A stretch of DNA of 64,000 bases from Demequina salsinemoris (GTDB lineage Bacteria; Actinomycetota; Actinomycetes; Actinomycetales; Demequinaceae), in NCBI RefSeq assembly GCF_000974805.1, contig NZ_BBQZ01000005.1:124001-188000 (forward strand), in the 5' to 3' direction. A program made the translations under genes and the position numbers. Below, one piece after another: positions 3,498 to 53,875 of the stretch. The notes below the pieces were generated by a model. It was not told where the DNA came from and did no database searches. It was given only the letters and a program-made list of their open reading frames with translations. The first letter of the stretch is position 1. Every line of letters starts with the position of its first letter.

Positions 3498-4136
3498 TCA
3501 ATCGGCGGCTTCGGCCGCCTTCTCGGCGCCCTCGGCTGAGGGGTGCACGACCCGCTCGGCCGAAGCGCGGGCCTCGTCGGAATCCGGTCCGGGAAGCGGG
3601 ACGAGCACGGTCTCGCGGTAGTAGCGCAGCTCGGCGATCGAGTCCTGGATGTCGCCGAGCGCGCGGTGGTTCCCCGTCTTGTCGGGGGCGTGGAAGAACA
3701 CGCGGGGGTACCAGCGGCGGACCAGCTCCTTGAGCGAGCTGACGTCGACGACGCGGTAGTGGAGGCGCTCCATGAGCTGGGGCATGTCGCGTTCGAGGAA
3801 GGCCTTGTCCATGCCGACGGTGTTGCCTGCGAGCGGCGGGCGCGCGCCTGCGGGGATGTGCTTGTTGACGTAGGCGAGGACCTGCTGCTGCGCGTCCTCC
3901 ATGGTGGTGCCGTGCTCGAGCTCGGGCAGCAGTCCGGACGTCTCATGCATCTTGGTCACGAAGTCGTTCATCTGCTCGACCGCGCCGGCCGGTGGTCGGA
4001 TCACCACGGACACCCCTTCGCCGAGCACATTGAGCTCGGCGTCGGTGACCAGGCACGCGACCTCGACGAGCGCGTCGTTCTCGAGGTCCAGCCCGGTCAT
4101 CTCGCAGTCGATCCAGACGAGTTGATCAGAAGCCAT
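3498..4136 (-). CDS. orn: oligoribonuclease
   Basis: 212 aa, DEDDh-type 3'-5' exoribonuclease that finishes RNA decay by degrading 2-5-nt oligoribonucleotides, including pGpG from cyclic-di-GMP breakdown. Expected catalytic residues are present: D10 and E12 in WIDCEMTG, D110 in NTVGMDKAF, H157 and D162 in GNHRALGD. The family is about 180 aa; residues 181-212 are an extra Ala/Glu-rich tail. A TAGAGT hexamer at 4143-4148 ends 6 bases before the ATG, so the mRNA may be leaderless. Its role in pGpG removal is relevant because four diguanylate cyclases lie elsewhere in this window. Confidence 0.96.
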   Translation of the reverse strand: MASDQLVWIDCEMTGLDLENDALVEVACLVTDAELNVLGEGVSVVIRPPAGAVEQMNDFVTKMHETSGLLPELEHGTTMEDAQQQVLAYVNKHIPAGARPPLAGNTVGMDKAFLERDMPQLMERLHYRVVDVSSLKELVRRWYPRVFFHAPDKTGNHRALGDIQDSIAELRYYRETVLVPLPGPDSDEARASAERVVHPSAEGAEKAAEAAD

Positions 4137-13949: not shown

Positions 13950-14137
13950 CTCGCGCATTCGCGCATGTACAAGGGTAGCGGGGCGCGCACGCGTCGGAAA
14001 TCGTTCGCGGTTCGTGAATCTGGGGACGAAGGTCCTAGCGCGTTCGCATGCCTGCGACCGACTGGGGGAGCGACCACGGAGGGTCGCCACGCGGGGAAGG
14101 GGCCGCAGGCCGCCGGGTCGAGAGGAGCCTCCCGCCC

Positions 14138-15655
14138 ATGCTCAGCTTCCGCGGACAGATGATCCTTGGCGCGGCCGTGACCGCGACCATCGCCGCCACC
14201 GGCGCCATCGCGGCGCTCGTCGCGCTCGGCTCCGTCGACGGCGCTCCCTCGTGGGCGTCCCCGACGATCCTCGTGCTCGGCTCGGCCGCAGTCCTCATGC
14301 CGATCGGCTGGGTGTCGTGGCTCAGCGTGCAGCTCGGCGCACCGTGGCAGGAGTTCGCGGCTCTTCTCTCGGCCGCCGCCGAGGGCGACTTCGGCGGCCG
14401 CGCAGACGCGTCCACGCGGGGTCCGTTCGCACCTCTCGCGCGCGACTACGACCGCATGGCCGACACCGTCGGCTCGAGCATCGGCACGATCGGCGACGAC
14501 GTGCTCGCCCTCTCAGCAGCCATGGAGGAGCTGTCCGCCGCGACCTCACAGATCTCCGCGGGCGTGAGCGCGTCGTCGACAGAGGCGACGTCGGTCGCCG
14601 CCTCCGCGCAGCAGGTGTCGACGAGCGCTCAGACCGTCGCGACCGCGACCGAGGAGATGTCCGCGTCCATCCGCGAGATCGCCGCGAGCACGAACGCCGG
14701 CGCGGCCGTGGCAGCCGAGGCCGTCGAGGCCGTCGAGACGGCGAGCGCGACGGTCGCGGAGCTCGGAGACTCCTCCGCCCAGATCGGGGACGTGGTCAAG
14801 CTCATCACCCAGATCGCGGAGCAGACCAACCTGCTCGCGCTCAACGCCACGATCGAGGCCGCGCGCGCGGGCGAGGCGGGCAAGGGCTTCGCCGTCGTCG
14901 CGTCCGAGGTGAAGGACCTCGCGCAGGCGACCGCCAAGGCCACCGGCGACATCGGCGGCCGCATCGATGCCATCCAGTCGGGCGTCGGCGCCGCCGCGTC
15001 CGCGATCGGGCGCATCTCCGGCGTGATCGAGCAGGTGAGCGAGAGCCAGGGCGCGGTCGCGGTCGCGCTCGAGGAGCAGACGTCCGTGACCGAGGAGATG
15101 AGCAGGTCCGTGACCGAGGCCGCGATGGGAGCGGAGTCGATCGCGGAGTCGATCAACCGCATCGCGCAGGCCTCCTCGGCGTCGAGCGAGGCCGTCTCGG
15201 ACACCACCACTGCACAGGGTGACGTCGCCCGCATGACCGACGACCTGAGCGAGCTGCTCGCGCGCTTCACGTACGCCGAGCCCGCCACGACAGAGGTCTC
15301 GGCCGAGCGCCAGATCACGCGCGCGATCGGCGCGCACGGCGCGTGGAAGAAGCGCGTCCGCAAGGCGGTCGACGCAGGGCGACACGGCGAGGACCTCGCG
15401 ACGGTCGCCAGGGACGACGCGTGCGCGTTCGGCCGCTGGCTGGCGTCCGACGCGAGCCAGGACGCGACGGGCTATCACGAGGCGAGCCGGCAGCAGCACG
15501 CGGCCTTCCACCGCGAGGCCGCGGCCACGCTGAGGCTCGTGGGGGCTGGGCACCGCGCTGACGCGGCTGCGGCGCTCGAGGCGGGCGGATCGCTCGCCGA
15601 GGCCTCCCGCGTGCTCACCCAGACGATGCTCGAGTGGCGACGCCAGGTGTCCTGA
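14138..15655 (+). CDS. methyl-accepting chemotaxis protein with C-terminal CZB domain
   Basis: 505 aa. Two membrane helices (about 8-30 and 42-62) enclose a very short external loop, so there is no periplasmic sensor domain. A HAMP-like segment and signalling coiled coil follow, with the hallmark hairpin tip [34 protein letters not shown] split around residues 220-255. Residues 395-490 form a CZB zinc-binding domain with the expected ligands H400 (HGAWK), C429 (CAFGRWL), H454 and H458 (QQHAAFH). CZB receptors sense zinc or oxidants such as hypochlorous acid. No che genes are in the window. A GCGACC-6-GGTCGC hairpin (14070-14087) lies in the leader. Confidence 0.92.
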
Positions 15656-44404: not shown

Positions 44405-45730
44405 ATGTCCAAGGGTGCGGCCTGGCGCGTCGACACGCCGCTGGGTCCCGTGCTCGCGCATCGTGATGGCGACCTGTGGCGCGCGCGGGGCATCCCGTAC
44501 GCCGAGGCCGCGCGATTCGAACGGCCTTCGCCTGTGCGGCCCTGGCGCAAGCCGTACGACGCCGCGACGCCCGCCCCCGTCAGCCCCCAGGCTGCAGACG
44601 GGCTCACCGCCTCGATCAGCCCGGATTACACGGAGCTTCTCGGGATCGACGAGCGCTGCCAGCGAGTGTCGGTCACCTGGCCGGACGATGCGGGCGACGA
44701 GCCGCTGCCCGTGGTCGTCTGGATCCACGGGGGCAGCTTCCTCACGGGAGCCGGCGACCTCGAGGCGTACGATCCGGCGCTGCTCGTGCGCGAGCAGCGC
44801 GTCGTCTTCGTCTCCGTCACCTACCGGCTCGGCCTGCTCGGATGGTTCGGGGACGACGACTTCGCGCCCGCGAACCTGGGCCTGCTGGACATCCTCGAGG
44901 CGCTGAGATGGGTGCGCGCGTGCGTGTCGAGCTTCGGCGGAGACCCGACTCGGATCACCGTCATGGGCCAGTCGGCGGGCGGGGACGCGATCGCCGCGCT
45001 CCTCGCCGTGCCCGAGGCGCAGGGACTGTTCCGGAGGGCGATCCTCCAGTCCGCGCCGCTCGGCATCGACGATCGTCGCGACGGCATGCATCGCACGATG
45101 CGCGGCGTGGTCGCGCCCGTGGACCCCGGCATGGGGCTCGACGAGGTGTACCGCGCGCAGGAGGACATCTACCGCGCGACGAAGCGGCATGGGCTCAAGG
45201 GGCTCATGCCGTTCGGTCCCCAGTGGGGGCGCCACCCGCTTCCTCCGGAGTCGCGTCGCGCGACCGAGACCGCGCGCGCGAGCCGCGTGGACCTGATGGT
45301 CGGACACCTGTCGCAGGAGGGCATCGTGGTCGGTGCGGCCATCCCCGCCGTCGGCAGGGCCTTCCGCGCGCGCGTCGTCGGCGGCTCCGCCCAGCGGGCG
45401 ATCGCCGGTCCGCTGCAGGCAGTCGTGTACGAGCGCCCCGCGCGGGCCTTCGTGGACGCTCATCGGGCAGCCGGAGGGCGCGCCGTGCACTACGTGCTCG
45501 GGTGGAAGGCGACCGGGTCGCCGATCGCCGACGGCCACGGCATGGACATGCCCGTCCTGCTCGGCGACCCCGACGCCTGGACCCAGGCGCCCGCACTCGT
45601 CAACGAGAGCGCTGACCGGATCCGTCGGGTCGGCGCCGCGGTGCGGCAGGTGTGGGGCGACTTCGCCCGCACCGGCGCGGTGGCACCGGGCTCGGCGGCC
45701 GCCGCGTCGGAGTGGCTCAGGCTCAGCTGA
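44405..45730 (+). CDS. type B carboxylesterase
   Basis: 441 aa alpha/beta hydrolase. Oxyanion hole HGGSF (109-112), nucleophile Ser190 in MGQSAGGDA, and N-terminal GIPYAEAARFERP are type B carboxylesterase hallmarks. The likely catalytic His is in PIADGHGMDMP. GGAGG 7 bases before ATG 44405 fixes the start, rejecting a GTG at 44363. It hydrolyses carboxyl esters; substrate unknown. One GGACGATGCG copy is at 44683. Confidence 0.92.
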   Translation: MSKGAAWRVDTPLGPVLAHRDGDLWRARGIPYAEAARFERPSPVRPWRKPYDAATPAPVSPQAADGLTASISPDYTELLGIDERCQRVSVTWPDDAGDEPLPVVVWIHGGSFLTGAGDLEAYDPALLVREQRVVFVSVTYRLGLLGWFGDDDFAPANLGLLDILEALRWVRACVSSFGGDPTRITVMGQSAGGDAIAALLAVPEAQGLFRRAILQSAPLGIDDRRDGMHRTMRGVVAPVDPGMGLDEVYRAQEDIYRATKRHGLKGLMPFGPQWGRHPLPPESRRATETARASRVDLMVGHLSQEGIVVGAAIPAVGRAFRARVVGGSAQRAIAGPLQAVVYERPARAFVDAHRAAGGRAVHYVLGWKATGSPIADGHGMDMPVLLGDPDAWTQAPALVNESADRIRRVGAAVRQVWGDFARTGAVAPGSAAAASEWLRLS

Positions 45731-45769
45731 GCGCGTTCCCGACCGTTGCAGGCGTGGCCGCCCCCGGAC

Positions 45770-47242
45770 TCAGTCGGACCCATTCGTGGTGCTGCGGGCC
45801 TTGTGTCGGTACATCGCGTGATCCGCGCGCGTGAGCAGGGAGTCGAGCGTCGGCGCGTCACCGGGGCCGGCCGCCGCGGACCCGATGCTGGCCCTCGCCT
45901 CCGCGGGGCCGTCGCTCAGGACGAAGATGTCCCCGAAGAGCTCATGGATGCGCGCGGTCACCGGCTCGGAGACGATCTCGGGACATCCCTCGACGACCAC
46001 GATGAACTCGTCGCCGCCGAGCCTGCCGACCAGATCCTTGGGCCCGCTCCTCACGAGCACGCCGAGCCGTTCCGACACCGCGACGAGGAGCTCGTCGCCC
46101 GCTGCGTGCCCGCGGGTGTCGTTGATCTCCTTGAACCCGTCGAGATCGATGAACCAGACGACGATCCCCGGCGAGTCTCCTGCGCGCACGCGTGTCGTCA
46201 GCGCCTCGATGCGGGCGTCCACCGCGCGCCGGTTGGGCAGGCCCGTGAGCATGTCGTGGTCCGCGAGGAAGCGCAGCCGGGACTCGGCGTCGCGGTGCGA
46301 GGCGGCGAGCTGGCTGATGCGCGTGAGCACGAGGGAGGTGACGACCACCGAGGCGATCGCGCCGCTCAGCACGTCGACGCGCCCGCCCGCCAGCACGCGC
46401 GTGATCACGATGATCGGCGTGGTCATCATCGCGACCCCGAGGACGAAGATCCGGCCCGAGGTGAGCTGAACCGTTCGTTGCGGGATGATCTCGAAGGCGT
46501 CGGGACCGGCAGGATGCACGATCGCCCCCCACGTGGCCGCGAACGCGACGGGCCACAGGACGCCGATCCACTCGGGAGCGACGCGGGTCGCGGGATCCGC
46601 GAGCACGGTCTCGAGCACGTTGCCCGTGACGGTGATCAGCAGCGCCACCGCGAAGTACCACTTCACGGGGCGCGCGGAGCGCGGCACCCCGCCTGTCGCC
46701 CTGAGGCCCACCACCACGCCGATCGCGCCGATGAGGGTCGTGGTGACGATGAGGATCTGCCACCGCTGCCACGGGGCGGCGTCCGCCATCCCCAGCACGG
46801 GAGCGAGGGACGCCTGCCACAGCGCGGACGTCGTCGCGACGGTCAGCGTGGTCGCGTCGAGGACCCCGCCGAGGCCGTGCCGCGCCGAACGGCGGATCAC
46901 GAGGACCGCGGCGACGAGCAGGAAGAGGTAGCCGACGCCCATGAGCGCGTGCACCGCGAGGTGCGTGGAGTCCTCGGGCGTCCCGCTCGCGAAGGTGCCG
47001 AACCACAGCGCGCTGGCGGCGAGCTGGAAGACGTAGCCTGCGAGCAGGGCCGCGTAGACGCGGCGCGCGAGGCCGCTCGTGCGGCGGACCCGGCCGAGCG
47101 TCGCGATCGTGAGCACGAGGCTCATCGCCGTGACGGTGCCGGAGCCGACGGTCGGGCCGCCGGCGAGGTAGGTCGCGACCGACGCCGCGGACATCAGCAG
47201 CACGGTCGCGAGCACGCGGGCCTCGGCGCTGATCGTCCTCAT
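45770..47242 (-). CDS. membrane diguanylate cyclase 1 of 4
   Basis: 490 aa. About ten hydrophobic helices fill residues 1-300, with the motif GGVLDATTLTVATTSALWQ. The GGDEF domain has DHDMLTGLPNRRAVD, FIDLDGFKEINDTRGHAAGDELL and GRLGGDEF (409-413). The active site is intact, so it should make c-di-GMP. The position of the inhibitory I-site Arg (nine before GG) holds Gly, so feedback inhibition is probably lost. No EAL domain. A GATGTT box ends 6 bases before the ATG. It is the last of four paralogs. Confidence 0.94.
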   Translation of the reverse strand: MRTISAEARVLATVLLMSAASVATYLAGGPTVGSGTVTAMSLVLTIATLGRVRRTSGLARRVYAALLAGYVFQLAASALWFGTFASGTPEDSTHLAVHALMGVGYLFLLVAAVLVIRRSARHGLGGVLDATTLTVATTSALWQASLAPVLGMADAAPWQRWQILIVTTTLIGAIGVVVGLRATGGVPRSARPVKWYFAVALLITVTGNVLETVLADPATRVAPEWIGVLWPVAFAATWGAIVHPAGPDAFEIIPQRTVQLTSGRIFVLGVAMMTTPIIVITRVLAGGRVDVLSGAIASVVVTSLVLTRISQLAASHRDAESRLRFLADHDMLTGLPNRRAVDARIEALTTRVRAGDSPGIVVWFIDLDGFKEINDTRGHAAGDELLVAVSERLGVLVRSGPKDLVGRLGGDEFIVVVEGCPEIVSEPVTARIHELFGDIFVLSDGPAEARASIGSAAAGPGDAPTLDSLLTRADHAMYRHKARSTTNGSD

Positions 47243-47344
47243 GTTCTCAACATCGGAAGCGATGCGCGGAAGTGAGGGATTGTGGCGCGCTACCGGTTCG
47301 ACGGCGCGGGCGCCGGGTCGGCGGTGACCGCGGGCAGGACGCGC

Positions 47345-48826
47345 TCAGGACGGAGCAGGATCGCCGGCCTCGCGCCGCCGGTGCTTCTCCGCGTACATCG
47401 CGTCGTCCGCGCGGCTGAAGAGCTCCTCCGCGGTGCGGAGGTCGCCGGGGCCGACGACCGCCATCCCGATGCTCGCCGACGCGGTCACGGCGCCATCGCT
47501 CAGGGAGAAGGGGGCGGAGAACGCCTCGCGCACGCGGGCCCCGACGGACGGCGCGGTCGAGGCAGGGTCTCCCGCGGCGACCAGGATGAACTCGTCGCCC
47601 CCGAGCCGGCCGACCAGGTCACCCGAACCCGCGCGCGCCAGCCCCGCGAGCCTGTCCGCGATGGCGATGAGCAGCTCGTCGCCTGCCGTGTGCCCGTGAG
47701 TGTCGTTGATGACCTTGAAGCCGTCCAGGTCGATGTAGCAGACCGTCAGCCCAGGCGACGATCCCTCCGCGACCGTGCCCAGCGTCGTCTCCAGGTGGTA
47801 CCTCACGGTGCGTCGGTTCGGAAGCCCCGTGAGCGCGTCGTGCCCTGCCAGGAAGCGCAGTCGGGTCTCGGTGTCACGGTGCGCCGTCGCGAGCTGGTTC
47901 ACGCGCAGCAGCACCATCACGGCCAGCACCGTCGTGGCCCCTGCGGACGCGGCCCATCCCACGAAGCCCCCGGTGATCTCGCGCACGATCGCGATGGTCG
48001 GGGAGATCACGAGGGCGACGCCGAGCAGCATGATCCTGCGGGTGGTGAGCCTGCTCTGCCGCGGAGGAGCGGCCTGGAACGCCTCGGACCCCGCCGGGTG
48101 CGCGATCGCGCCCCATGCCACGGAGAAGGCGAGCGGCCAGCACAAGCCGGCCCACCACGGGGCGATGTTCGTGACGGGATCCGCATACATCGCGCCGATC
48201 GCGTTCCCGCCCACCGTGAGGATGAGCGCGACCACGAAGTAGCGCAGCACGGGGCGTGCGGCGCGCGAGGTGCTGCCGTTGGCCTCGAGCCCGATCACCA
48301 CGCCGACGGATCCGCTGAGGATGATGATGACGAGGAAGACGTAGGCCCGCTGGGCGTACGACGTCGAGGAGGCGTCCATCGCGGGTGCGAGGAAGGCCTG
48401 CCACACCGCGGACGCCGCCGCGACCGCAAGCGTGGCCGCGTCGAGCACGCCTCCGGGGTCCTGCCTCACGGAGCGTCCCACGACGAGGAAGGCGGCCACG
48501 AGGAGCAGCACGTATGCCACGCCGAGGAGCGCCTGCCACTCGTTGTGGATCGAGGACTCCTCGACACCGCGCGCGAAGGTCGTCAGCCACAGCAGCGCCG
48601 CGCCGTTCAGCACCACGAAACCTGCGAGCAGGAACGAGTAGACCAGGCGCGGGAATCCGGTGACGCGCGAGGCCCGGACCGCTGCGGTCGCGGTGACCAT
48701 GAGACTCAGGACCAGCACGGTGGCGGATCGTATGACGGCGTCGCCGACCACGTAGGCGGCGGCGGACGCCGCGGACATCACGAGCACGACGAAGAGCACT
48801 CGCGCGCGCGTCCTGTCCTGACTCAT
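47345..48826 (-). CDS. membrane diguanylate cyclase 2 of 4
   Basis: 493 aa with the same plan: about ten helices (GGVLDAATLAVAAASAVWQ), then LTGLPNRRTVRYHLE, YIDLDGFKVINDTHGHTAGDELL and GRLGGDEF at 409-413. The I-site Arg position is Gly (AGSGD). A GATGGT box ends 6 bases before the ATG, so it may have its own leaderless promoter despite the ~100-base gap to its neighbours. Confidence 0.94.
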   Translation of the reverse strand: MSQDRTRARVLFVVLVMSAASAAAYVVGDAVIRSATVLVLSLMVTATAAVRASRVTGFPRLVYSFLLAGFVVLNGAALLWLTTFARGVEESSIHNEWQALLGVAYVLLLVAAFLVVGRSVRQDPGGVLDAATLAVAAASAVWQAFLAPAMDASSTSYAQRAYVFLVIIILSGSVGVVIGLEANGSTSRAARPVLRYFVVALILTVGGNAIGAMYADPVTNIAPWWAGLCWPLAFSVAWGAIAHPAGSEAFQAAPPRQSRLTTRRIMLLGVALVISPTIAIVREITGGFVGWAASAGATTVLAVMVLLRVNQLATAHRDTETRLRFLAGHDALTGLPNRRTVRYHLETTLGTVAEGSSPGLTVCYIDLDGFKVINDTHGHTAGDELLIAIADRLAGLARAGSGDLVGRLGGDEFILVAAGDPASTAPSVGARVREAFSAPFSLSDGAVTASASIGMAVVGPGDLRTAEELFSRADDAMYAEKHRRREAGDPAPS

Positions 48827-48908
48827 GCCCCCACCATCGGCCGTGACGCTCCGAGGTGAGCGACTCGAGGCGTGCGGTGTCCACGATCACACGGGCGAAG
48901 CGGTCCGA

Positions 48909-50390
48909 TCAAGCCCCGTCGCGTCCGGAGGCCGTCCCGCGTCGGCGCTTGTCGTCATACATCGCGTGGTCCGCCTGCGTGAGCAGCTCGTCGACCGTGT
49001 GCAGCTCGCTCGGGGAGGCGGTGGCGAGCCCGATGCTCGCGGACATCGTCATGGGCCCGTCGCTCAGCGCGAACGAGGTCTCGAACGCGTGCGCGATGCG
49101 GGCCATCATCGGCGCCGAGGCGAGGGACGGGTCGCCCTCGCCGATCACGATGAACTCGTCGCCGCCGAGCCTCCCCACGAGGTCGTCGGACTCCGAACGG
49201 GCCAGTCCCGCGAGACGAGCCGCCACCGCCGCGAGCAGCTCGTCGCCCACGGCGTGCCCGTGAGCGTCGTTCACGCCCTTGAAGTCGTCCAGGTCCACGA
49301 AGCACACCACCGCGCCGAGCGCGTGCCCGGTGGCGACGCGGGAGGCGAGGTCGCCGAGATGCTGCTCGACGGCGCGGCGATTCGGCAGGCCCGTGAGCGC
49401 GTCGCGTTCGGCGAGGATCCGCAGCCGCGCCTCGGCGTCGCGGTGGGCCGCGGCGAGCTGGCTGACGCGCGCGAGCACCATGACGACGATCGCGAGCGTG
49501 GTGATCGCCCCGGTCAGCCAGTCGACGTATCCGTCGGTGAAGGAGCGCACGACGGCGATCGCCGGCGTGATGACCATCGCGACGCCGAGCGCGACGAGTC
49601 GCCTCGTCGTGAGACGGCTCTGGTGCGGACGGCCCACCTCGAAGACGGCGGAGCCCATGGGATGAGCGAGGGCCGCCCACGCCGCGATGTAGGACAGGGG
49701 CCACAGGACGTCGGTCCACCATGCGTCCGCGCCCGTGACCGGGTCGGTCGCAGTGGCGTTGAGGCCGTTGCCGGCCACGGCGATCAGGAGCGCGGCAAGG
49801 AAGTAGCCCAGGACTGGGCGGGCCGAGCGCGAGACGGATCCGTTGACGCCGACACCGATCACCACCCCGACCGTGCCGCTGAGGACGATCGTGGCCGCGA
49901 ACGTCGACACCGTCTGCGCTCGGGGCGCGTCGACTGAATCGAGCGCGGGCGCGAGGAACACCTGCCACAGCACCGATGCGGTGGCGATCGCGAGCGTCGC
50001 GGCGTCGAGGACCCCGCCGGTGTCGTAGCGCAGCGCCGGCGCCATCGCGAGGAGTGAGGCCGCGAGCAGGAGGACGTAGGCGGCGCCGACCATCGGGACG
50101 CTGATCGCGTCGACCGCGGACTCCGACACCCCGACGGTGACGACGGCGAGATACGACGCCTCGTTCATGACCATCAGGACGAAGCCTGCGAGCAGGAGCG
50201 AGTAGACGAGACGCATCGAGCCGACGGCGGTGCGCAGATGCGGGATCACCGCCGAAGCCGCGAGGACGCTTGTCAGCACGACGATGGCGCCGCCGACGGC
50301 GGGCGGGCTCGCGAGGTACACGGCCGAGGAGGCGAGCGCGAGCACCAGCGCGCAGCACGCCACACGTCCCGGTGTGCTCACGAAGCCCAT
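48909..50390 (-). CDS. membrane diguanylate cyclase 3 of 4
   Basis: 493 aa. Helices with GGVLDAATLAIATASVLWQ, then LTGLPNRRAVEQHL, FVDLDDFKGVNDAHGHAVGDELL and GRLGGDEF at 409-413. The I-site Arg position is Glu. I chose the ATG at 50390 because AGGGGGA lies 5-6 bases upstream and the longer frame has no paralog match. This copy alone has a clear ribosome site, and the gap to copy 4 is only 43 bases, so it may be co-transcribed with copy 4. Confidence 0.93.
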   Translation of the reverse strand: MGFVSTPGRVACCALVLALASSAVYLASPPAVGGAIVVLTSVLAASAVIPHLRTAVGSMRLVYSLLLAGFVLMVMNEASYLAVVTVGVSESAVDAISVPMVGAAYVLLLAASLLAMAPALRYDTGGVLDAATLAIATASVLWQVFLAPALDSVDAPRAQTVSTFAATIVLSGTVGVVIGVGVNGSVSRSARPVLGYFLAALLIAVAGNGLNATATDPVTGADAWWTDVLWPLSYIAAWAALAHPMGSAVFEVGRPHQSRLTTRRLVALGVAMVITPAIAVVRSFTDGYVDWLTGAITTLAIVVMVLARVSQLAAAHRDAEARLRILAERDALTGLPNRRAVEQHLGDLASRVATGHALGAVVCFVDLDDFKGVNDAHGHAVGDELLAAVAARLAGLARSESDDLVGRLGGDEFIVIGEGDPSLASAPMMARIAHAFETSFALSDGPMTMSASIGLATASPSELHTVDELLTQADHAMYDDKRRRGTASGRDGA

Positions 50391-50433
50391 CCGCGTCCCC
50401 CTGATCGCCGACTGGCGCGGCCGATCGATGCCC

Positions 50434-51906
50434 TCACGTCGCCACGGCTCGACGCCGAGCGCGCTTGTCCTGATACATCCTGCCGTCGGCATGGGTGAGG
50501 AGCGAGTCGGCGCTGCTCACCTCGCCGGGCCTCGCGGTGGCCACGCCGACGCTCGCCGACGCTGTCGCGGGGCCGTCGCTCAGCGCGAACGTGCCTTCGA
50601 GCGCCCGGTGGACCCTCGCGACGAGGGCGTCCGCGGTGGCTTCTGGCTCCCCCTCCGCGACCACGACGAACTCGTCGCCGCCGATCCTTCCGACGAGGTC
50701 GTCCGTACCGGAGCGCGCGAGCCGAGCGAGCCTGCCCGCGATCGCGACGAGCAGCTCGTCCCCGATGGCGTGGCCGCGGGTGTCGTTCACCTGCTTGAAG
50801 CCGTTGAGGTCGATGAAGCACACCGCAGCGCCGGGCGCCTCGCGCGCGGCGACGCGGAGCGCGAGGGCGTCGAGGCGCTGCTCGACGATCCGCCGGTTGG
50901 CGAGCCCCGTGAGGCTGTCCTGGTCGGCCAGGGACTGGAGCCTCGTCTCGGCGCCCCGGTGCGCCGCGGCGAGCTGGGCCACGCGCGCGAGGACCATGAC
51001 GATGATCACGACGCTCGCGACGGCCTCGCCTGCCCAGTCGACGTAGGAGCCGGCGAGATCGCGGACGACCGCGATGCTCGGGGTGATCATCATCGCGAGG
51101 CCGAGCATGAGCAGCCGTCGAGAGGTGAGGCGTCGCGACCCCTGCGCGGTCACCGCGAGCATGTCGGGACCCGCGGGGTGGGCGAGGGCCGCCCACGCGG
51201 AGACGTAGGACACGGGCCAGACCGCGTCGATCCACGAGGGGTAGGCGTGCGTCGCGGGGTCGAGGAAGGCGGAGCCGAGCACATTGCCGGCCAGCGCGAG
51301 CCCGAGAGCGCCGAGAAGGTAGAGCAGGACCGGGCGGGCCGAGCGCGGCGCCGAGCGGTTGAGGATGATCCCCGCCACGATGCCCGTGGCACCGCTCAGG
51401 ATCACGACGATCGCGAAGGAGTAGGCGCGGGCGCTCGTGGGCGCGCCTGTGGCGTGCAGCGATGGCGCGAGCACCGCCTGCCACAGCGCGGCGGCCGCGG
51501 CGACCGCGAGCGTGGCCGCGTCGAGCATTCCTCCGGGGTCGCGCCGCGCGGTCGGCACCAGCGCGAACGCGGCCGCCACCAGGATGAGCAGGTAGCCCCC
51601 TGCGATCAGCCCCGACATCGCGTTGCCGATCGCCTCGGCATCCACGCCCAGGGTGAGTGTCGAGACCCACAGCGTCTCCGCGGTGATCAGCAGCGTCAGC
51701 CCGACGAGCACGGAGCCGTAGACGACGCGGGCTCCACCCCTGGAGCGCACGAGGTGGGGGATCACGTTCGCGGCGGTCAGCATCCCCGCGAGCGGGACGA
51801 CGACGGCGCGGATGAGCGGTGTGCCCTCCAGGAACAGCGCGACGAAGGCGACGGAGAGGGCCACGGCGAGCACGAGCACGCGCGCGGGAGTGCGGACGAT
51901 GCTCAT
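50434..51906 (-). CDS. membrane diguanylate cyclase 4 of 4
   Basis: 490 aa. Helices with GGMLDAATLAVAAAAALWQ, then LTGLANRRIVEQRL, FIDLNGFKQVNDTRGHAIGDELL and GRIGGDEF at 409-413. The I-site Arg position is Gly. The ATG at 51906 follows a GATAGG box by 6 bases, and SIVRT just after it matches the short cytosolic N-termini of the paralogs. It is the first of the four in transcription order and divergent from the zinc-ribbon/SPFH module. Confidence 0.93.
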   Translation of the reverse strand: MSIVRTPARVLVLAVALSVAFVALFLEGTPLIRAVVVPLAGMLTAANVIPHLVRSRGGARVVYGSVLVGLTLLITAETLWVSTLTLGVDAEAIGNAMSGLIAGGYLLILVAAAFALVPTARRDPGGMLDAATLAVAAAAALWQAVLAPSLHATGAPTSARAYSFAIVVILSGATGIVAGIILNRSAPRSARPVLLYLLGALGLALAGNVLGSAFLDPATHAYPSWIDAVWPVSYVSAWAALAHPAGPDMLAVTAQGSRRLTSRRLLMLGLAMMITPSIAVVRDLAGSYVDWAGEAVASVVIIVMVLARVAQLAAAHRGAETRLQSLADQDSLTGLANRRIVEQRLDALALRVAAREAPGAAVCFIDLNGFKQVNDTRGHAIGDELLVAIAGRLARLARSGTDDLVGRIGGDEFVVVAEGEPEATADALVARVHRALEGTFALSDGPATASASVGVATARPGEVSSADSLLTHADGRMYQDKRARRRAVAT

Positions 51907-52076
51907 GACGTCCCTATCGACTGGCGCGCGCGCGAATGAAGCGTTGCCGGGGCCCTGTTGCCACCCGTCGTCCTTCGCCCGGGCCGTTCGCGCTGACGGC
52001 GCCGACGCTGCGCCTCGCACACGCCCTATCGTCCCGGCGTCGTCCGCTCGCGATGCCACCGGGTGACGCGAAGCGC

Positions 52077-52106
52077 TTGTGCTTGGCCAGCGGACGCCGG
52101 TACCTT
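52077..52106 (+). promoter_or_regulatory. promoter of the zinc-ribbon/SPFH module
   Basis: TTGTGC (52077-52082) and TACCTT (52101-52106) are 18 bases apart. The GTG at 52148 lies 41 bases on, preceded by GAGAGGGG. The 51907-52076 stretch upstream, shared with the divergent cyclase gene, shows no other clear feature. Confidence 0.5.
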
Positions 52107-52147
52107 CACCGGGTGGGAGCAGGAGCCCGCGGCGAGAGGGGACGTCG

Positions 52148-53875
52148 GTGACGCAGCGGTATGGCGAGGTGTTCCTGCCCGAGGGTGAGGGGACGAGCGA
52201 GGGCACGTCGACCGCGGGCGCCTCGACAGTCGTCTCCGGGAGTGAGGCGGTGTTCGAGACCCCGCCGAAGCCGCCCGTCGACCCCGCCGCCGCGAGCGGC
52301 CGTCGCCTCGCGACCCCCGCGGGAGTCGGCAACGGTGTGGTGCGATGCCCGAGCTGCGGGTCGTCGCAGGGAGCCGCCGCGGACGACGGCACGTCCTTCG
52401 TGTGCGCCCACTGCCGGCACGAGTGGCGCGCTGCGGACCTGGATCGAGCGATGGGCCTATCCGAGCACATCTCGGGGCTTCAGGGGCCGACGCACGCGAC
52501 TGCCGCGACGAACATCACGTCCGACGACCCCCTGATGGCGGTGGCGTGCGACGGGTGCGGCGCTGAGGTGGTGATCGACACGGAGCGTTCGCTGCGCGCG
52601 GCCTGCCCCTGGTGCCGCCACGAGCTGTCGCTCAGCGACGCAGTTCCCAGTGGAATGGTTCCCGACGGCATCCTGCCGTTCTCGGTGTCCAAGGCGCAGG
52701 CCTGGCAGAGCGTGCAGGCCGCCGCGCGTCGTCGCTGGTGGTTCGCCTCGAAGGGTTTCCGGCAGGGACTCGCAGTGGAGAACCTCAAGCGGGTCTACCT
52801 GCCGTACATGACAGTGGATGTGCGCGCGAACGTGCGGATGGACGGCTTCGGAGAGGTCGAGCTCGCCAGGTCGAGCGCTGGCGAGACCACGACGTACCAG
52901 GCCCGACGCTACGCCGTGATGCGTCAGGTGGAGGTCGAGGTCGACGATCTGATCGTCGAGACCGGCTCTGCCACGGCGAGCTCTGGCGCCGCGGCAGCGA
53001 CCACGAACATCTTGGGCGCGATCCTGCCGTTCGACGTCAAGAACGCGGTGCGATTCGACGCGCGGGTGCTGGAGGAGGACGCCACGGTGCAGCGTCGTGA
53101 GCTCGACTCGTCCGACGCGGGTCCCGTCGCGGCGGGGCACGTCCTCGCGATCGCGAGGGAGGCGGCGCGCGAGTCGGTCTCCCAGTACGACCGCTATGTG
53201 CAGTGGGAGGCCGAGCAGGCCAGGATCGAAGGAACCCGATGGGTGTCGATGCTGCTGCCCGTATGGCTCTACAGCCATGTCGAGCACGAGCGCGGCGGGG
53301 ACACGGCCCACTTCATCGCCGTGAACGGCCGGACCGGGGCAACTTCGAGCTCGATCCCGATGGACCGTCGACGCCTCGCACTGGTCTCCTTGGGGCCTAC
53401 GATGCTCCTCCTGTCGCCGTTCTTCCTGATCGGGCTCGCCTCGCTGTTCCTCATGCGAGACCCGATCTTCTCCCTGATGTTCCTCCTCGTTCCGGTGCCG
53501 TTCGTCGTCGCGCCGGCCTGGATCATCCGATTCGTGATCAAGCGGAGGTACCGCAACGCCGAGGCACGGTACGAACCCGAGAAGGTCGTGGCGAGGGAGT
53601 CGGCGGTCGTCGCGGGAAGCGACCTCGAGGTCGGCGACGTGACGTCGACGTCGGCCGGGGTCCCGTGGCCGAACTCGATGTTCGCGCACCTGCGTGCGCG
53701 CCATTGCGTGTACTTCGCGGCCACTGTGGCCTCCGGCTCCCGGCTGGGCCCGCCGCCGATCTCCACTCATGAGCCCTACCAGGCGGACCTGCTTGAGCAC
53801 GGCATCCGCGGTATCCCCGCTCAGCTCACGCCTCCGAGCGTCCCACGGCTGATCGACGAGCCGTCGCCGCAATGA
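52148..53875 (+). CDS. double zinc-ribbon membrane protein, YdjG-like (long form)
   Basis: 575 aa. A disordered N-terminus precedes two zinc ribbons: C67/C70/C86/C89 (CPSCG...CAHCRHEW) and C134/C137/C153/C156 (CDGCG...CPWCRH). A large conserved beta-rich domain follows (GILPFSVSKAQAW, VYLPYMTVDV, AILPFDVKNAVRFD, WVSMLLPVWLYSHV, HFIAVNGRTGAT), then two membrane helices (about 415-465) and a cytosolic tail with RRYRNAEARYEPEK and LRARHCVYF. Bacillus YdjG, with YdjH, anchors PspA-type proteins; that this protein does so is inference, as no PspA is nearby. Confidence 0.82.
   Translation: MTQRYGEVFLPEGEGTSEGTSTAGASTVVSGSEAVFETPPKPPVDPAAASGRRLATPAGVGNGVVRCPSCGSSQGAAADDGTSFVCAHCRHEWRAADLDRAMGLSEHISGLQGPTHATAATNITSDDPLMAVACDGCGAEVVIDTERSLRAACPWCRHELSLSDAVPSGMVPDGILPFSVSKAQAWQSVQAAARRRWWFASKGFRQGLAVENLKRVYLPYMTVDVRANVRMDGFGEVELARSSAGETTTYQARRYAVMRQVEVEVDDLIVETGSATASSGAAAATTNILGAILPFDVKNAVRFDARVLEEDATVQRRELDSSDAGPVAAGHVLAIAREAARESVSQYDRYVQWEAEQARIEGTRWVSMLLPVWLYSHVEHERGGDTAHFIAVNGRTGATSSSIPMDRRRLALVSLGPTMLLLSPFFLIGLASLFLMRDPIFSLMFLLVPVPFVVAPAWIIRFVIKRRYRNAEARYEPEKVVARESAVVAGSDLEVGDVTSTSAGVPWPNSMFAHLRARHCVYFAATVASGSRLGPPPISTHEPYQADLLEHGIRGIPAQLTPPSVPRLIDEPSPQ

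Follow-up and report, generated by a model that had tools for sequence, protein, structure and literature searches.

A common effect of cyclic di-GMP (c-di-GMP) is to slow swimming and promote attachment, and in described gamma-proteobacterial examples the flagellar sigma factor lowers c-di-GMP, letting cells swim. Three described systems come closest to the locus considered here: in Pseudomonas putida, the phosphodiesterase gene bifA is controlled by FliA and aids swimming (PMC5300878); in Rubrobacter, promoters of the sigma-28-class factor WhiG lie before genes for c-di-GMP enzymes (PMC8325347); and YfiN (DgcN) is a membrane diguanylate cyclase (DGC) without a normal I-site, described with a PAS-like region in the periplasm, HAMP and YfiR (PMC10127611). 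Among the papers listed by a literature search on FliA together with DGCs in Actinobacteria, none came nearer than PMC8325347. Here we describe a tandem of four genes which, judging from its sequence, we regard as likely to be a FliA-controlled, multi-sensor c-di-GMP synthase array in the flagellar regulon of motile Demequina.

The four-gene array and its relatives

We analysed a window of 64,000 nucleotides (C16:124001-188000) from the 3.21-Mb, 20-contig genome of Demequina salsinemoris (henceforth G000). The first-pass annotation of this DNA had reported four tandem paralogs of 490, 493, 493 and 490 amino acids, and this was borne out by the open reading frames and their Pfam GGDEF matches (Table 1). 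All four lie on the minus strand, and the order of transcription is P4, P3, P2, P1. Their GGDEF domains score 122-126.6 bits (Pfam cut-off 23.8) and the metal and substrate motifs of catalysis are intact in each, so that by domain score and motifs P1-P4 are GGDEF diguanylate cyclases for which synthesis of c-di-GMP is predicted. As had been noted, GGDEF occupies residues 409-413 in all four proteins, in an alignment that is gap-free up to this motif, and P2, P3 and P4 are 51%, 46% and 46% identical to P1, respectively.

Table 1. Genes of the array and putative promoters ahead of them (positions are those of the window).
Feature	Position	Strand	Basis and remarks
P4, first array gene, 490 aa 10-helix membrane GGDEF protein	50434..51906	-	ORF, Pfam; counterpart G028_d
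P3, 493 aa	48909..50390	-	ORF, Pfam; start 43 bp behind P4; counterpart G028_c
P2, 493 aa 10-helix membrane GGDEF protein	47345..48826	-	ORF, Pfam, AlphaFold model
P1, final array gene, 490 aa	45770..47242	-	ORF, Pfam, alignment
Putative P4 FliA (sigma-28)-type promoter, TTCA-N15-GTCGATAG	51914..51940	-	matrix score 12.0; conserved columns; ends 7 nt before ATG
Putative P2 FliA-type promoter, CTCA-N15-GCCGATGG	48834..48860	-	matrix score 16.9; genome pattern match; ends 7 nt before ATG
Putative P1 FliA-type promoter, CTCA-N15-TCCGATGT	47250..47276	-	matrix score 10.6; genome pattern match; ends 7 nt before ATG

The count of about ten helices also held: an AlphaFold model of P2, run with homologues (15 sequences), has ten long helices ahead of the GGDEF domain (pLDDT 87.9), and the tenth continues into that domain. 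The membrane part is, as proposed, the most divergent, with a mean pairwise identity of 43.1% (residues 1-290) against 55.3% for GGDEF. DUF998 was rejected as an assignment for this part, since it scored 24 bits in P1, under the cut-off of 30, and matched 1/15 family members in all. A Foldseek search with the membrane part gave no significant match (best E 0.34), and a rhodopsin/GPCR-like match to its helices 2-8 reached a best Z of 10.8 with an rmsd of 5.5 over 192 residues, which is in the common range for helical bundles. Matches in a plasmid collection were at the level of GGDEF, none of them over 80% of the protein.

The genome carries 20 GGDEF genes and nine EAL genes. The remark that the window holds no phosphodiesterase stands to the extent that 0 EAL genes were found there, but it means little because the genome carries nine; three of these lie on C16 outside the window, the nearest upstream at C16:120473-121141 (2.9 kb ahead of the window start) and the nearest past it at C16:193343 (5.3 kb beyond the window end). 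The ORF named orn (3498-4136) is assigned to RNase_T exonuclease by Pfam. Elsewhere in the same genome (G000:C18:355950-363060; L082:10950-18060), another four GGDEF genes of a different build stand in tandem: Cache-like input domains occur in three of the four, RxxD is retained in three, and a FliA-type promoter was not seen nearby.

The counts over related genomes leave out four named Demequina records that duplicate genomes already in the set. An order-wide search, which scored five candidates a genome, matched the membrane part in 11/396 genomes (seven Demequina, three genomes of a single further family and one weak match); G013, in which a family gene is discussed below, was not among its matches. 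The genome G028 contains a second four-gene array with the same gene order. In a tree of the membrane halves, P4 pairs with G028 d and P3 with G028 c with full support, and P2 and P1 group, less clearly, with G028 b and a and with G043_217; from the first two pairings, at least P4 and P3 are judged older than the split between the two genomes. Genes a and b of G028 (contig C4) are identical over their final 562 nt plus the stop codon, from codon 303 onwards, whereas before codon 303 they are 49-75% identical in 40-codon blocks, and the match stops right after the stop codon. A recent gene conversion confined to the catalytic half would apparently account for this pattern; so might a faulty assembly. 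The idea that the signal is limited by the sensor part is still plausible, its support being the more divergent membrane halves of P1-P4 and the catalytic half shared by G028 a and b. In another family of the order, three members lie inside an 18-kb stretch of G181 (C23; loci L191, L199 and L196), one of which combines AGDEF with the best-matching, putatively leaderless FliA-type site among the distant homologues (16.3).

FliA-type elements ahead of P4, P2 and P1

The first-pass annotation had drawn attention to -10-like boxes exactly 6 bases before the ATG of three of the genes and had taken them as signs of separate promoters. The spacing is confirmed: the hexamers GATGTT, GATGGT and GATAGG stand at this distance from the start codons of P1, P2 and P4, respectively. 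We found them to lie within a longer element, YTCA-N15-xYCGATRx-N7-ATG, so that the suggestion of separate promoters carries over to P1, P2 and P4 (as promoters of sigma-28 type) and fails for P3, where no FliA-type promoter was found (matrix score 4.7). The matrix was built from the fliC promoters alone of 12 genomes, including this one, with the genes of the array family kept out; these promoters read CTCA or CTTA, N16 and then mostly xCCGAT. When it was scanned over 60 bp upstream of 15 family genes in eight genomes, 12/15 scored 9.75-16.9, and in every one of these 12 the -10 box ends 7 nt ahead of the start codon; the family-wide form of the element is CTCA-like-N15-xYCGATRx-N7-ATG/GTG. 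Three genes did not reach such scores: P3, G028_c, which is the gene in the corresponding position (score 0.9, no FliA-type promoter), and the family gene of G013, a flagellated genome, which has no clear promoter. Because P3 and G028_c are both without the box, P3 is probably co-transcribed with P4.

As a control, 397 predicted ORFs from retrieved stretches of the same genome, whose starts are rough, were scored in the same way (mean 2.1, 95% 7.9, 99% 11.1), and some of the top control ORFs look on manual reading like chemotaxis or flagellar genes themselves. The weakest family scores are matched by 1-2.5% of control ORFs and single promoter calls thus vary in strength, but the fixed position of the box adds to the individual calls: CGAT stands at -13 to -10 in 12/12 promoter-bearing family genes compared to 19/2389 candidate control starts, a comparison in which the 12 genes are homologous and some of their genomes close, so that their upstream regions are not independent trials. 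Among the same 12 genes the -35 element varies (CTCA, TTCA, TTGA and TCCA-like) and the spacer is about 35% identical, while CGAT is constant. Five distant homologues from another family of the order, with start codons chosen by hand among candidates, have similar boxes in 4/5 cases, 7 nt from the start in 3/5 and 6 nt in one; their matrix scores are 8.96, 12.66, 4.36, 16.34 and 4.85, with a weak G107 match left out.

All these genes are homologous, and the likeness of the boxes may accordingly be inherited sequence without promoter function, in which case one upstream promoter would give a single four-gene transcript. The array gaps of just 43-102 bp, in which a scan found no intrinsic terminators, would suit such a transcript. 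Yet the boxes are the two-part element of fliC, kept at promoter spacing while the spacers have diverged, and they also precede the distant homologues in another family, single-copy genes included; we hold a single transcript of this origin to be highly improbable.

On the reading we prefer, P1, P2 and P4 are predicted members of the FliA regulon, by a promoter form that is the same as that of fliC, and their expression is predicted to depend on FliA. At sigma-28 promoters the transcription start usually falls some 7 nt downstream of the -10 box, and a box 7 nt ahead of the start codon would then make the mRNA begin at the start codon itself. Hence we infer that the mRNAs of P1, P2 and P4 are leaderless, starting at or beside the start codon. 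The box of fliC, by comparison, lies about 60 nt upstream of the gene. A consensus CTCA-N15-17-GCCGATAA has reportedly been published for Actinoplanes; it was not found in the literature searched, which included work on A. missouriensis.

Across the whole genome, the pattern CTCA-N14-17-CCGATR has 77 matches compared to 22 for the reversed pattern, a difference uncontrolled for codon bias, and the sites include those ahead of fliC, cheA and motA (the latter two named by manual reading). In a wider scan of 460 bp a gene, made without a control set of its own, 6/10 chemoreceptor genes have a matrix match of at least 13.6 near the start, and two of the 16 other GGDEF genes have a match scoring about 15 no further than about 60 bp upstream. 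Strong FliA-type sites (15.1 and 15.0) lie shortly upstream of two GGDEF + EAL genes at C19:181824 and C19:83718. The window itself contains a chemoreceptor gene (14048-15655) whose product ends in a zinc-binding CZB domain, and for which the scan with the fliC matrix found no FliA-type site close ahead of the start.

An altered I-site loop shared by the family

It had been stated that Arg is missing at the I-site position, -9 from GGDEF, and this is so: the residues are G, G, E and G in P1-P4, and RxxD with Arg at -9 is absent from all of them. Asp at -6 is retained, and R-x4-D stands in place of RxxD. When P4 is aligned with PleD (9g86), R398 falls opposite the RxxD Arg of PleD and is followed by a 2-residue gap, and R431 aligns with the PleD residue taken as R390, counted from GGEEF. 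We take R390 of PleD to be the second-site Arg. With respect to a shifted RxxD, then, Arg is kept two residues further out (R398) and Asp is kept, but the spacing has changed to R-x4-D.

R398, D403 and R431 are invariant in 15/15 homologues, and Arg at -9 is absent in 14/15 family members, the sole exception being the single member in G004, which has RDGD at the I-site position but SGDEF for GGDEF. Among the five distant homologues a normal RxxD is present in two (G316 and G290) and not in three (all from G181). Four independent losses of feedback, as originally implied, are not what these data describe: the 2-residue insertion is inherited family-wide, and the four genes of the window are best described as having taken over one altered I-site loop by inheritance. 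The missing Arg at -9 is, moreover, ordinary, because in this genome it is also absent from 7/16 of the remaining GGDEF genes (R..D in nine, none in seven).

These residues bear on the earlier reading of the locus as four cyclases that are free of feedback, have housekeeping promoters of their own and are limited by their sensors only. The lack of Arg at -9 in P1-P4 and the divergence of the membrane parts are as that reading expects, whereas the invariance of R398, D403 and R431 speaks against freedom from feedback, P3 without a box speaks against four separate promoters, and a sigma-70 interpretation of the boxes was rejected since 0 promoters passed a consensus scan of 45500-52300. We consider this reading quite unlikely. 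Product feedback is instead probably altered by the two extra residues that the whole family carries in its primary I-site loop, and in P1-P4 it may be weakened; an absent Arg at -9 does not by itself denote a feedback-free DGC.

Flagella, sigma factors and comparison with known systems

Within the Demequinaceae, the array family, as detected by the membrane-part model, is present in 8/47 genomes and flagellin in 13/47, and all eight family genomes fall among the 13 with flagellin (hypergeometric 4e-6, ignoring kinship), leaving five flagellated genomes without the array family. In the family searched, array genes are thus confined to flagellated genomes. A sigma-28-type factor lies beside fliC in 12/13 flagellated genomes, the thirteenth (G011) being 50% complete; this factor scores under the TIGR02479 cut-off and one of its kind, likewise under the cut-off, also occurs in two flagellin-less genomes, G012 and G033. 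Over the same cut-off, a WhiG-like factor is found in 47/47 genomes, and in G000 its gene (C18:215132) adjoins dprA/xerC-like and rpsB/tsf-like genes, named by manual reading. No PilZ (YcgR-like) receptor was found in this genome.

It is conceivable that the WhiG-like factor, rather than FliA, reads the array promoters, with c-di-GMP feeding back through an RsiG-like anti-sigma factor to give a self-controlled array. The factor belongs to the same sigma class and could read the same sites, and in Rubrobacter 5/12 start-site-confirmed WhiG promoters precede DGC or phosphodiesterase genes (PMC8325347). However, the array family tracks flagellin (8/8) and the WhiG-like gene does not, and the strict RsiG motif E(X)3S(X)2R(X)3Q(X)3D, searched as a DNA pattern, had four matches compared to three in the control, none convincing by eye. 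Control by the WhiG-like factor is, in our judgement, rather unlikely.

We return to control by FliA. FliA is set free once the hook-basal body is complete. The fliC-linked FliA would read the array promoters late in flagellar assembly, transcribing flagellin, chemoreceptors and P4(-P3), P2 and P1, with P3 reached by readthrough of P4. Different or graded inputs would be sensed by the membrane halves of the four proteins, which would share one output, c-di-GMP. Because the array enzymes are predicted to make c-di-GMP, FliA would in this way install a motility brake during assembly, to be applied by membrane signals, and building the flagellum would probably also turn on the signal that later halts swimming. 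A fuller proposal, which we put forward tentatively, is that the flagellar sigma factor turns on c-di-GMP synthesis through the leaderless promoters of a multi-sensor array, in which gene conversion keeps the catalytic half alike and the sensors diverge. If the tie between this promoter type and c-di-GMP synthesis is confirmed, the coupling of flagellar assembly with c-di-GMP in motile Actinobacteria would run opposite to that in the gamma-proteobacterial examples, and an array of like catalytic and unlike membrane halves would allow tests of several inputs into one second messenger.

Compared to known systems, the array proteins have the same catalytic fold as PleD and keep both the RxxD Asp and the position of R390, but two residues are inserted between the Arg and the Asp of their primary I-site, and their input domain is another one. 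With YfiN/DgcN they share the character of a membrane DGC without a normal I-site (PMC10127611); unlike YfiN as described there, they have a membrane part of ten helices and do not match HAMP. YfiN/DgcN (NF007423) is the best NCBIfam match of their GGDEF part (124.6-135.2 bits, P2 about 135), and membership was rejected, the scores being under the cut-off of 325 and covering the GGDEF part only. Like bifA, the array would place c-di-GMP enzyme genes within a FliA regulon, but BifA degrades c-di-GMP (PMC5300878), and the array enzymes are predicted to make it, which is the opposite sign. The likeness to the WhiG/RsiG regulon of Rubrobacter lies in actinobacterial sigma-28-class promoters ahead of c-di-GMP enzyme genes; that regulon is tied to type IV pili and an RsiG switch (PMC8325347), whereas the array is associated with flagella, no convincing RsiG was found by the strict pattern, and the array consists of one tandem family with the box next to the start codon. 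Overall, FliA control of c-di-GMP enzymes is already known; what would be new here is the leaderless four-gene array, its sign (synthesis, tied to flagella) and the copied catalytic half.
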